Shown one piece after another: positions 56,511 to 62,505 of a stretch of DNA of 64,000 nucleotides. Location of the stretch: positions 1 to 64,000 of the forward strand of contig JABANP010000133.1 of NCBI GenBank assembly GCA_013115135.1. The letters are read 5' to 3'. The DNA is from Perkinsus olseni (taxonomy: Eukaryota > Perkinsozoa > Perkinsida > Perkinsidae). The stretch's first letter is position 1. Each line of letters opens with the position of its first letter. Both the position numbers and the translations under genes were made by a program. A model generated the notes under the pieces. The model did not search any database and was not told the DNA's origin. It saw only the letters and a list, made by a program, of their open reading frames with translations.

Positions 56511-57559
56511 ATGCAAGAGGCAGAGAATAGGTTTCGTGTGTCCAACGACATAGGTGAGGCCCTGTCCCTGTGCCCGTGTCCTTAGCGAGTGCCATCAGAT
56601 GTGCGAGAGCTCGGGGATTCCCTCTGGGGCTTCCTCAACTACCCAGGGGACCTCCTAGTGATGCAAGGGGTGGGTCACCTCCTGTGTCGAAGCATCGGCC
56701 ATCTTGTTCTTGCTGCTTCAGCACGGTATAACACCAGTCTCGACAGTCCTCAAGTCCATAGCACACGCAAGTCGTATTAGAGATAGGCCCATCGACGTTC
56801 TTGTCACGGGGGCACCAGCAGACACTGAAGGGGCCTTTCGGTTGGTCTGCGGTTACCTCCTGGTGGTAGGTTGCAGGGCTGCTGCCTTCAGGAGGCCGTA
56901 GCCGAGAGCTATGGATAGCAGCGATGAAGCCTGAGGAAGAAGGCAGCCCTAGCGTGGTGCCCAAGGAACCCATCAGGGTCGGGGCCAAAACCCAATCAGC
57001 CAGCTTGGGTGGGTTCATCTCTCACAAGTTGAAGGAAGAAGGCGTGGCATTACTGCAAGGTGAGATCTGCTGACACCTCGGGCGACACCTCTCATGTGTG
57101 GGTACCACATTTCCCCCGTTTCGTAGGTTCTAGTGCTGTGACCATCGCCAAGATGGCTGATGGCATTGCTATAGCTGGGGCTCACTGTAGGAGCGTTGGC
57201 ACTGCCATGTTGATGCATGCCTCTCAGTCAACGGAGAAGAGGGCCGACCATCAGCGCATTTAGTCTGTCGGCTTCGGACCATCCTAGTCGAGGCCGATGC
57301 AACAGTGTCTCGAGACGGAGAGGATGCCGACCAGATTGGTGGTGATGGCAGCCCTAGTGGTGACACGACGGTGCCGCCGCGGCCAAATCGCATCAGAGTC
57401 ATGCAAGTACTGGTGCGTTTGAAGGAGGGGCCGATTCAAGGCAGCAGCAGCAGCTCCTCGGCAGCAGCACAGCCACACAGTGAAGACGAGGCGAATGATG
57501 CTGAGGTCACCATGGACAGCATCAGTGGTGACGATACCTCCAAGGGTGTAGCTCGATGA
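56511..57559 (+). CDS. Tandem Alba/SpoVS-like double-domain protein, unit 1
   Basis: Starts MQEAENRFRVSNDI, which recurs in unit 3 (MQQAEDRLRVTS). Domain A: DVRELGDSLWGFLNYPGDLL-VMQG spliced to HGITPVSTVLKSIAHAS and ending VLVTGAPAD. Domain B: IRVGAKTQSASLGGFISHKL, VALLQG spliced to SSAVTIAKMADGIAIAGAHC, which closely follows the bacterial SpoVS pattern (VSSKSxPxSVAGALA ... AIGAGAxNQAVKAVAIA). A Gly/Asp-rich loop follows, then a last strand (RIRVMQVLVRLKEG) that matches the SpoVS carboxyl strand. SpoVS belongs to the Alba nucleic-acid-binding superfamily; a DNA/RNA-binding role here is inferred. Introns split each domain before its central helix. Whether the units are separate genes or one long gene is open. 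Confidence 0.72.
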
Positions 57560-57817
57560 GATGGGACTTGTTTCTGCAATCACAGTTGCTGTTGTTTGAC
57601 CCCCTCCTAGCCCCTCTCTTTCAAGAGGTGGAAGCGTACGAGCCCCGGAGATTCAGTCGCCTTCTTCCTTGGAGTCCACTCAGCCGTCATGATCGCCATC
57701 TCGCGACTGCTCCGGTGTGACGTCTCGGGGCCTTCAGTACGTCACGGCCGTCATACACTATTGAACACAGCAACAGCAGGACCCTCACGGCCCGCCTATC
57801 GCCTGCCGCCTCCACAG

Positions 57818-58846
57818 TTCGCGATAGATTCCCAATTCAAGTTCAAAGTCGAGGCTGAGGCTCGTAGGCGACAGCAGCCCCTCCTGCTGCTTCCTAGTCG
57901 GTGGTGGTGTCAGATCCAATGGACATTGGCGATCTCATCATGAAAGTGTCTATGAGCAATCGCCATACTGTGGTCTTGCAAGCGGTGAGCGATCCTCGGG
58001 TCCAGTAGCGAATGGTGACGCTTCTCTCTCCAGCAAGGCGTTGCGGCAGCAGCGGTGGCCGTCAAGGGCTTCATAGAGGCCAACGCTCCTCGTTCACGTA
58101 CTTGCCATTTAGTAGTCTCGGGTGCCCCTCCAGATGAGGTTGGCAGGAGGGGTGAGTAGCCCCTGACGGCCGTGCAGCCGCAGCCCCTCCCTCCTTTCAG
58201 GAGGCCCTAGTACAGTGCTCTGGCTGAGCTCCTATCGGTCTAAGGACCCAAACCTTTTCGCTCACGACAGTGTGGAGACTATGGTGGTATCTAATCACAC
58301 TAAGCCTGCTCCCTTGGCGGGCTCAATATCAACCTCGATCGAGCAGGGGAACGTTGTCCGGTTGCAGGGTAAGGCCTCCATACCACTCCTTCCCGGAATC
58401 GTCCTCTCTCTGCTAGGCGCCGGCCCCCACTGCCTGAAGAAGATGACCGAAGCCCTAGCGATCAGCGGCCGGCATTGTAGCCTCGTTCCTTCTTCACTAT
58501 GGCTCTTCGAAAATGTTACTGCTCAGTCTCTGAGGGCCGACAGCCACGACCCGATGCCCGGCGAGGCCCGGGACTCCTAGTGTGTTGGCCGAGGTTTGTG
58601 GCCGCACGGGCTCCGAGTGAGCCAATCGCCACCGCCAGCTTCGTCCACGTCCTCGGATTCTCAGGCGCTGGGCACGATCGGGGACCAAAAGGCGTCGTGG
58701 AGATCCACGTCGCCTTGGAAGAGCACGCCAGCAGCGACTCCGCCGAGCAGGAGCGGCGACGTGATCTTATCAATAGGGAGGACCAGGAGCCCGAGGCCCC
58801 CTCCCGGTCGAGAATACCCGAGCTCAATGGTGCTGTGCATCGATGA
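57818..58846 (+). CDS. Tandem Alba/SpoVS-like double-domain protein, unit 2
   Basis: Domain A: SQFKFKVEAE, then MDIGDLIMKVSMSNRHTVVL-QA spliced to QGVAAAAVAVKGFIEANAP and ending HLVVSGAPPDE. Domain B: VVSNHTKPAPLAGSISTSIE, VVRLQG spliced to AGPHCLKKMTEALAISGRHC, and a final strand KGVVEIHVALEE followed by a Glu/Arg-rich tail (stop 58844-58846). The intron phase and place within each domain match unit 1. The start is uncertain; Met codons further upstream (57689) exist. Confidence 0.7.
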
Positions 58847-59039
58847 CCATGACTGTCTCGAAGATATGTTTCTGTTCCGCTCAGTCTTGGGTTGGGGCTT
58901 CCCTTCAATAACGTGGACAGCAAGAGTTTGATCTAAGATGCTCGCATCTTGCCGCAGGGCCGCCATACCACACCATGTTGGCCTCGTGTCGTGCTTTGTG
59001 GGGGCAAGACGGGGCTTCCGGACTCTGGCCACCAAGGAG

Positions 59040-60124: not shown

Positions 60125-60365
60125 CCTGTGGGAGCATGGCAGCTGATTACTGTTTCTGAGCACCTCCCTAGCGCTGCGTCAGGGCGGTCACCTCACCGTG
60201 TTATCATTCAAGCCCACTCTGTGGGACGTTATTCCTCAGGCAATGCCGGTCGCCTCAGCACGCCATGCCTCTCCAGTATTACGGGGGATGCTACGAGCGT
60301 CCCCTTGCCGGCTGGCCTTCAGCCTTCCGCCACCTGCACAGCTAGCGCGGTGCCCACCCTTCGCG

Positions 60366-61442
60366 ATGTGGAGCCCCGTGAACTTCGAGTACACCAACTT
60401 CTGCCGTAAGGGTCTCAGCCATTATGGGTTGATCACCTCCCTTCCAGATCCTGTTAACGTCTGTGAGATCCTCCCTAAGCGATTCAGGAAGGCTGGTGAC
60501 TTGGCGACAATGCGTGTTGTGGTGAGGAAGTACCGCCTGGTAACCGACGTGGTGATTCTACTGCTGCCAGGGTGTTCCAGTGAGGGCTGGCAAGGCCCTC
60601 AAGACCTTCATCGATATGTGCCCTGAAAGTCCGTAACGGTGGATTGATCGAAGTCATCTGCAGTGGACCGCCGCCTCAGAGACCGCCAGGTGGACAGCAA
60701 GGAGAGGAGGAAGAGGGTAGGGGGTCCTCCAGGGCGTCTGTCACGGCGGAACTATTCTGCAGGGGAGGCTAGCCAACCTGAGCTCTGGATACATGGCCGG
60801 ATCCAACCGAAGGGGGGCCGATCGAACATACAGGCAATCGAGCCAGTGGAGATCAAATTGGAGAAGGGTTGGGAGATGGAGGCAGAGGCAGGGAAGATGG
60901 CGGACATATTGACGAAGGAGAAGAAACAAGTGAATCTCCGTATCATACTCAGTGAGCTTCCTGACGCTACTGCTGACCGTTGGACTGATCTGCCCGCCTC
61001 TGTAGGTGTGGTCACAACCACGACCAATGTCCGCCTGGCTCTCATCGCGGAGCTGCTGGCTCGGACGGGGCGTCTGTGTAGGATGTTTGAGGAGTCACTG
61101 TAATCACCGTCTCAGTGTCAGGCAACAACGCCGAGGGTTATGAGAACCACGAGTTGCTGGCTCGTATCAAGCCAACGTCTATCCAGTTCAAGAGGAAGGG
61201 AGGTGGGGCTCTGGTCAAAACGATTGCTGTTTGCTCTTGCAGTCACTGCCCCACCGGCAGCTCCTCGAGATGCTCTTCTTTTAGCCTTGAGTGACATGAA
61301 GGACAAGCGTGAGAAGGCTGGTACCATCACCAACCCCGGCGTGGATTTTCTCCTTCGTCTCGCACCGCAGCCCGATACTTACAACCCTCTCTTCACTGAG
61401 TGGAAACATCGCCGTAAAATAGAGCTGAAAGCTACGCATTGA
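60366..61442 (+). CDS. Tandem Alba/SpoVS-like double-domain protein, unit 4
   Basis: Starts MWSPVNFEYTNF. Domain A: SLPDPVNVCEILPKRF, ATMRVVV spliced to GVPVRAGKALKTFIDM and ending IEVICSGPPP. Domain B is more diverged: EAGKMADILTKEKKQVNLRI and TTTNVRLALIAELLARTG, then ARIKPTSIQFKRKG as the probable last strand. The carboxyl part ends ...KIELKATH at 61442. A possible additional half-domain lies just upstream (60200-60350, PTLWDVIPQAMPVASARHAS). Confidence 0.62.
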
Positions 61443-61682
61443 CGCCATGCCATGCGAGTGTCGTTTCTGTGCTGCACCCGTTGTTGAGTGATCTTAGCAC
61501 GTACGCTGTCCATGATCAGTGTTCTCCCTCGTAGGTGTGAATTCTGTCGACAATGCTGCTCCTCTCTAGGCTGTTGCATCCGAACGGGCGTCCCTCGGAT
61601 GAACAGCGCCCTCCGCTTTTCGTTTTTCTCAGCCAGTGTGGGAGACCATCGAACGATGATTCTGAAGCCGGCTGAGCGGGAC

Positions 61683-62505
61683 ATGGCCGAGTCGGACTTC
61701 CAATTCAGAATCAAAAAGGAGGCTGGTGGGCCCTGCGCCTCATATCAACGTCTCGCACCTCCCCGTCTCAGAGCTCAACGAGGTGGTGGTCCTTCTTGCG
61801 CATACCCTGAGGAATCAGCACGGCACCGTCGTTCTACGAGGAGTAGGTGGCGCCAACCGTAGCTGCTGCTAGGGATACATCTTTCAGCGGCATCCCAACT
61901 CGATACTCATGTCACTGAAGGCCGTCACTGCGTCAGCGTATCGCGCTAGTAAACAGATAGACTTAACCTTCCGAGGGCCTCCTACGGAGTGGCCGACTCC
62001 GGAGCAGAGGGAGGAGTTTGAACGATGGGCTGGGATGGAGGCGGGCAATGAGATATGGATAGGGGCGAAGATCAGCACCCGAGGCCACCCTGCCGATCAC
62101 AGAGGGTGGTCGGATATTCTGGTGCTCCCCGAAATAAATGCTGAGGACCTCGCTGACAGGATAGTACGGCTTATCGGAAGTGATAAGAACCTCAAAATCA
62201 CGGGTATTAACGAACACGCGAGGTGGAGTATCTTGTTGATTCCTGCCATGCAGGATTGGGAGCTCGCAGTTCTGCGGTCATGGCTAATGCTATCGCCATT
62301 GCATCTGAGACATGTAACGCCCCCGTTGCTCGCCCATTGTTGTTTCTCGGATCACGTTTCCATAGGCTCCGATTCGGGTGAGCTCATATGTCGAGCAGAC
62401 TTTACTAAGGTGCATGTGGATCCTAGGAATCACCATCCGGTTGGAGATGGTAGGGTCGCTACCTCTCGCCGCCCTGCCGCTTGTAGCCTCGCTTCCCCTG
62501 TGTGA
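61683..62505 (+). CDS. Tandem Alba/SpoVS-like double-domain protein, unit 5
   Basis: Starts MAESDFQFRIKK. Domain A: LPVSELNEVVVLLAHTL, GTVVLRG joined to SILMSLKAVTASAYRASKQI and ending LTFRGPPTEW. Domain B: EIWIGAKISTRG, INAEDLADRIVRLI, LKITGI spliced to GARSSAVMANAIAIASETC. The visible frame stops by 62505; the exact end depends on an unresolved splice. Same order and intron placement as the other units. Confidence 0.66.

Follow-up and report, generated by a model that had tools for sequence, protein, structure and literature searches.

Tandem genes for two-domain SpoVS-like proteins with putative mitochondrial leaders in Perkinsus olseni

The first 64,000 nucleotides of contig JABANP010000133.1 from the clam parasite Perkinsus olseni (the window; part of a 61.5-Mb assembly with 968 contigs) harbor five head-to-tail units, in each of which an original prediction made from the letters alone had recognized two domains resembling bacterial SpoVS, a member of the Alba superfamily. 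The locus raises the question of whether these units form one giant protein or a tandem family, whether the resemblance reflects true kinship, and what such proteins would do in a eukaryote. According to gene models derived from the sequence, the units are five separate tandem genes (U1–U5). We hold with about even confidence that they are nuclear genes for putative mitochondrion-targeted two-domain SpoVS/Alba-fold proteins that would serve mitochondrial gene expression as RNA-binding or scaffold subunits.

Gene models of the array

All five genes lie on the plus strand, with start-to-start spacings of 1280, 1249, 1305 and 1356 and intergenic gaps of 129, 91, 118 and 156 nt (Table 1). The repeated head-to-tail arrangement is thus borne out. 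The unit starts originally given fall roughly where the A domains begin, while the upstream leaders had been missed, and the end placed at 62505 is too early for the last exon of U5. Since every unit possesses its own leader and an in-frame stop, the units are modelled as separate genes.

The 28 modelled introns are all of the GT-AG type; 27 measure 40–68 nt and one 215 nt, in agreement with the range reported for P. marinus genes (39–1622 bp, mostly below 100 bp; PMC3101222). U2, U3 and U4 share the intron phase order 1,0,1,1,1,1, whereas the last intron is absent from U1 and the linker intron from U5. As splice sites were picked by hand, with frame and similarity as criteria, this agreement between units is not independent evidence. 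The joins match those of database orthologue models in five of five cases for U2 (P0001), five of five for U5 (P0002) and five of six for U4 (P0003), the last introns of U2 and U5 having been taken from P0001 and P0002, respectively, after these models had been seen. Of the features originally described within the units, the following were found: the end motif of domain A (S/T-G-x-P in U1–U4, RGPP in U5), a B domain of SpoVS-like pattern and an intron ahead of the central helix in both domains. The two-domain proteins further contain a linker strand with a tryptophan.

In U4 the frame is lost in this assembly. In P0003, an NCBI record of P. olseni with 94–98% identity, the reading frame runs through this site, so that the break may stem from an error of assembly; it may also represent a real lesion. 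That P0003 continues from U4 into U5 is read as an annotation fusion. In other P. olseni records U5 begins at an ATG further upstream (61553–61599) and has a longer basic leader; in this assembly that ATG is out of frame with the remainder of U5. An AG resembling a spliced-leader acceptor lies within 12 nt of the start in four of the five genes, compared with 68% of 996 ATGs, and is accompanied by a pyrimidine stretch in three of five, compared with 18%; such a signal is at most suggestive and was not used as support.

Table 1. Features of the SpoVS-like array, the second locus and the surroundings of the array (positions in the window unless a contig is named)
Feature	Position	Strand	Remarks
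U1 gene	56409..57559	+	292 aa; leader, A and B domain
U1 exons	56409-56553, 56599-56669, 56722-56851, 56892-57059, 57127-57186, 57255-57559	+	
U2 gene	57689..58846	+	287 aa; leader, A and B domain
U2 exons	57689-57863, 57914-57984, 58034-58151, 58201-58368, 58417-58476, 58527-58616, 58665-58846	+	
U3 gene	58938..60124	+	297 aa; long acidic/Gly loop ahead of last strand of B domain
U3 exons	58938-59082, 59126-59202, 59250-59367, 59411-59596, 59648-59707, 59764-59862, 59916-60124	+	
U4 gene	60243..61442	+	frame break within third exon of this assembly; highly divergent B domain
U4 exons	before break 60243-60405, 60448-60521, 60571-; after break -60716, 60763-60951, 61006-61077, 61122-61202, 61243-61442	+	
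U5 gene	61599..62753	+	248 aa; no A/B linker intron; last B strand in exon 62665-62753
U5 exons	61599-61725, 61772-61842, 61888-62203, 62254-62313, 62366-62449, 62665-62753	+	
U1 leader (presequence-like)	56409..56510	+	counterparts at starts of U2, U3, U4, U5
Intron ahead of domain A central helix, U1	56670..56721	+	phase 0; helix position from P0007 model
Same A-domain intron, U2-U5	57985-58033, 59203-59249, 60522-60570, 61843-61887	+	
Intron ahead of domain B central helix, U1	57060..57126	+	phase 1; helix position from P0007 model
Same B-domain intron, U2-U5	58369-58416, 59597-59647, 60952-61005, 62204-62253	+	
U6 and U7, second locus	C23 105567-107640		leaders, A and B domains
U6 copy	C345 about 21389-22214		near-identical to C23 copy
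Acyltransferase-like gene	55542-55877 and exon pieces to 56171		Pfam Acyltransferase 18.1 bits, E 0.0025, below cut-off 23
Long open reading frames	702-4640, 9448-13662	-	Pao-type peptidase, reverse transcriptase and integrase zinc-binding matches
LINE-type element	35473-38934	+	1154-aa open frame; endonuclease and reverse transcriptase domains

Kinship to SpoVS and to the Alba fold

Homology of the A and B domains to SpoVS is shown at the level of sequence profiles. The clearest family member is U6, which lies with U7 directly downstream at a second locus and matches Pfam SpoVS (PF04232, curated cut-off 24 bits) in two stretches with 54.2 bits (1.2e-14); its exon joins were fixed after P0005, P0007 and P0010 had been seen. 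Within the array, two stretches each are matched in U2 (31.6 bits, 1.4e-7; halves scanned separately, 0.12 for A and 1.5e-4 for B) and in U3, which reaches the cut-off with 24.0 bits (3.2e-5). Significant matches in all five units, asked for as support by the original prediction, are however not obtained: U5 stays below the cut-off (19.1 bits, 1.1e-3; its P. olseni record P0002 gives 22.7 bits, 8.3e-5), SpoVS is the sole but not significant Pfam match of U1 (12.5 bits, E 0.13), and neither piece of U4 matches any Pfam family. For U1 and for the U4 A half, membership in the family comes through similarity to paralogues (BLAST of U1 against U2 6e-14 and against U3 1e-13, of the U4 A half against U2 7e-7); the SpoVS identity of the U4 B domain is not convincing.

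In profile searches of the PDB, Thermus SpoVS (2eh1) ranks first for the seven A domains (1.4e-4) as well as for six B domains, U4 excluded (1.9e-7). A hidden Markov model (HMM) of 89 bacterial and viral SpoVS sequences was applied to 14 domains, seven A and seven B including those of U6 and U7 and with the U4 A domain from P0003, and to 2000 shuffles of each. Nine domains exceed all of their shuffles, U2 A is equalled by one shuffle and U3 B by four. With leave-one-out family profiles 13 of the 14 exceed all 1000 shuffles, U4 B being reached by three, so that the repeat pattern is not due to chance. Cross-tests of A profiles on B domains, and of B profiles on A domains, give mostly weak results (three of 14 tests exceed all 1000 shuffles), hhalign of the small profiles gives low probabilities of 7–63% and was not relied on, and an NCBIfam scan of P0005 and P0007 yields just HU matches far below threshold.

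The predicted structure of the U6 orthologue P0007 depicts a SpoVS fold and an Alba fold as well. In the structure comparison Alba and IF3-C come next after SpoVS among solved folds; the underlying hit list (VIA) barely covers domain A, and A rows missing from it carry no meaning. Pfam, PDB sequence profiles and the predicted structure thus uphold the proposed SpoVS homology, and fold kinship to Alba, likewise proposed, is confirmed by comparison of the model; by sequence, the Pfam and PDB searches of these proteins returned no Alba family. SpoVS, YhbY and IF3-C are handled as Alba-fold relatives in PMC11621453, which treats SpoVS as part of the Alba superfamily and in its excerpted text contains neither "Perkinsus" nor "mitochondri".

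Compared with bacterial SpoVS (PF04232; Thermus 2EH1/2EK0, B. subtilis), the Perkinsus proteins share the sequence profile, the order of strands and helices, the glycine turn before the central helix and the AIA-type helix. The bacterial proteins consist of one domain of about 86 aa, whereas those of Perkinsus contain two diverged domains and add introns, a leader, the linker strand with its tryptophan, long acidic or glycine-rich loops and a eukaryotic host. In relation to the Alba superfamily (archaeal Alba, Rpp20/Rpp25, the Alba proteins of Plasmodium and Trypanosoma), the proposed pair of domains lies within one chain. A gene going by the name SpoVS is also listed for volvocine green algae, among the mapping markers used in Gonium (PMC4856071), and a eukaryotic SpoVS as such is therefore not new. 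In the open-licence literature no description was found of two-domain, mitochondrial-type or tandem SpoVS genes, no paper linking SpoVS with Perkinsus, dinoflagellate or YunD, and none on a Perkinsus sporulation protein.

By sequence, at least seven genes spread over two loci make up the family, which arose by gene duplication. The two near-identical U6 contig copies are alleles or assembly duplicates, and U7 is also contained in P0005. U2 shares 73% identity with P. marinus P0001 and 21–28% with U1, U3 and U5, and the duplications are therefore older than the split of P. olseni and P. marinus. U5 is 96–100% identical to the P. olseni records P0002, P0003 and P0004 (P0002 96% over the length of U5). 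P0007 of P. marinus and P0008 of P. chesapeaki are orthologues of U6, and both U2 and U6 are kept across Perkinsus species; P0010 is 96% identical to P0007, and the MMETSP-derived P0010 and P0052 attest that genes of the U6 type are transcribed. In P0008 two SpoVS domains are joined to a Myb_Rap1 domain (2.6e-7), a join that may be real or an annotation fusion.

Searches of this genome with the queries U1, U2, U3, U6, P0002 and P0003, in which few candidates were scored for each query, gave no further convincing locus; two weak places appeared on C334 (E 0.84) and C855 (E 1.8). A family search of this genome with PF04232 returned nothing, probably because introns split the domain, whereas protein queries did recover U6. 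In searches for relatives outside Perkinsus, the single sequence of U2 matched one of 4564 candidates (E<=1e-3), and an alignment (A3) four of 7998 scored candidates (E<=1), all from Perkinsus. With bacterial rows included, 7995 of 8000 scored candidates matched, dominated by bacterial SpoVS, and the recognizable eukaryotic rows among the best 120 of these 7995 are Perkinsus and two MMETSP transcripts close to it. The Perkinsus-only distribution holds for these limited searches and is not proof of absence elsewhere. Viral contigs often carry SpoVS genes: at least 568 of the 600 pattern matches listed for IMG/VR contigs encode a relative of Thermus SpoVS.

Putative mitochondrial leaders and competing explanations

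The first 20 residues of the leaders carry 0–1 acidic and 2–4 basic residues in all seven members, a composition also seen in 41% of 320 background starts of open reading frames (ORFs) within the window. The stricter combination of no acidic residue and at least two arginines is found in five of the seven, compared with 15% of these ORF starts. The leaders thus suggest mitochondrial import without being proof of it, and the mitochondrial address of the U1–U7 proteins is putative. In the explanation that we favor, the family duplicated before P. olseni and P. marinus diverged, and the protein of each gene would be imported into the mitochondrion, where domains A and B of one chain may work as a built-in Alba-like pair. 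Within mitochondrial gene expression the diverged paralogues might then each serve as a separate RNA-binding or scaffold subunit, with fragmented ribosomal RNAs (rRNAs), messenger RNA and the mitochondrial ribosome as possible targets.

A role in mitochondrial RNA or ribosome assembly is favored as a hypothesis, RNA binding included, because of the state of translation in these organelles and a precedent in Toxoplasma. Perkinsus mitochondria decode conserved +1/+2 frameshifts during translation of their genes and possess incomplete sets of fragmented rRNAs, some perhaps imported (PMC9550989). In the mitoribosome of Toxoplasma, AP2-domain and RAP proteins show that other nucleic-acid-binding folds have been recruited to a myzozoan mitochondrial machine (PMC11742926); these folds are unrelated to SpoVS, and the excerpted text of that paper is without the words SpoV and Alba. 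No protein factors for the frameshift decoding or the rRNAs come up in the excerpts of PMC9550989, which makes the SpoVS genes concrete candidates. It is a rather doubtful extension of this that Perkinsus took a bacterial-type SpoVS fold, doubled it in-chain and made of it at least seven mitochondrial proteins holding or steering an aberrant translation with fragmented rRNAs and +1/+2 frameshifts in all mitochondrial genes. If true, a eukaryote would here have recruited a bacterial fold in an unusual manner, with a doubled domain, a mitochondrial-type leader and at least seven diverged paralogues, from a family that is widespread in bacteria and whose biochemistry is unsettled.

Several observations weigh against the proposed mitochondrial RNA-related role and the fold assignment on which it builds. 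The leader statistics are modest and the start codons were chosen by hand, and P0008, in its database model joined to a Myb-like region, shows no leader of this kind. Simple nucleic-acid binding is not favored by the net charges of the 14 domains, which range from -9 to +4 with a mean near zero, U3 B and U5 B being acidic. Among single domains, any Pfam SpoVS match at E<=1 is found for three of seven A and five of six B domains, and U1 A (reached by 160 of 2000 shuffles), U4 A (210) and U4 B (74) fail the test with the bacterial HMM. The model of P0002, a member type of the array itself, is poor (pLDDT, predicted local distance difference test, 50.7). Since the alignments behind the models held bacterial SpoVS rows (six for P0007, five for P0002), the B fold counts as independent evidence only in part.

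The near-neutral or acidic domains speak for an alternative that is possible but unlikely, in which a mitochondrial SpoVS-fold family acts as protein-protein scaffold or metabolic regulator without contacting nucleic acid, the Alba fold serving as dimerization module. B. subtilis SpoVS is likewise neutral and its role is described as not established (PMC3141063), and the AP2 domains of the Toxoplasma mitoribosome were reused mainly as scaffolds (PMC11742926). On the other hand, Alba and IF3-C are the nearest solved folds after SpoVS, and the Alba-fold relatives in PMC11621453 include nucleic-acid binders. Distinctly less probable are nuclear or cytoplasmic Alba-like RNA- or DNA-binding proteins whose leaders are no mitochondrial presequences. 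Cytoplasmic Alba RNA-binding proteins exist in trypanosomes (PMC3141063) and P0008 carries its Myb_Rap1 part, which may however stem from a gene-model fusion, while presequence-type leaders occur in seven of seven members, including U6 and U7 outside the window.

That the array is decaying, with at least U4 a pseudogene, would account for the frame break and the weak B domain of this gene, but is improbable in view of the open P0003 and the conservation of U2 and U6 across species. A single polyprotein of ten SpoVS/Alba domains, to which the joined models P0003 (U4 and U5) and P0005 (U6 and U7) might point, can practically be dismissed: P0001, P0002 and P0007 are single units, and leaders, in-frame stops and 91–156 nt separate neighboring units, so that of the two options originally offered the tandem family stands and the giant protein is rejected.

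Neighboring features in the window

The gene directly upstream of U1 resembles an acyltransferase. The SpoVS-family records P0002, P0005 and P0008 are named lysophosphatidylcholine acyltransferase, a name perhaps carried over from this neighbor. Far upstream of the array, the two long minus-strand ORFs probably represent a Bel/Pao-like retrotransposon.

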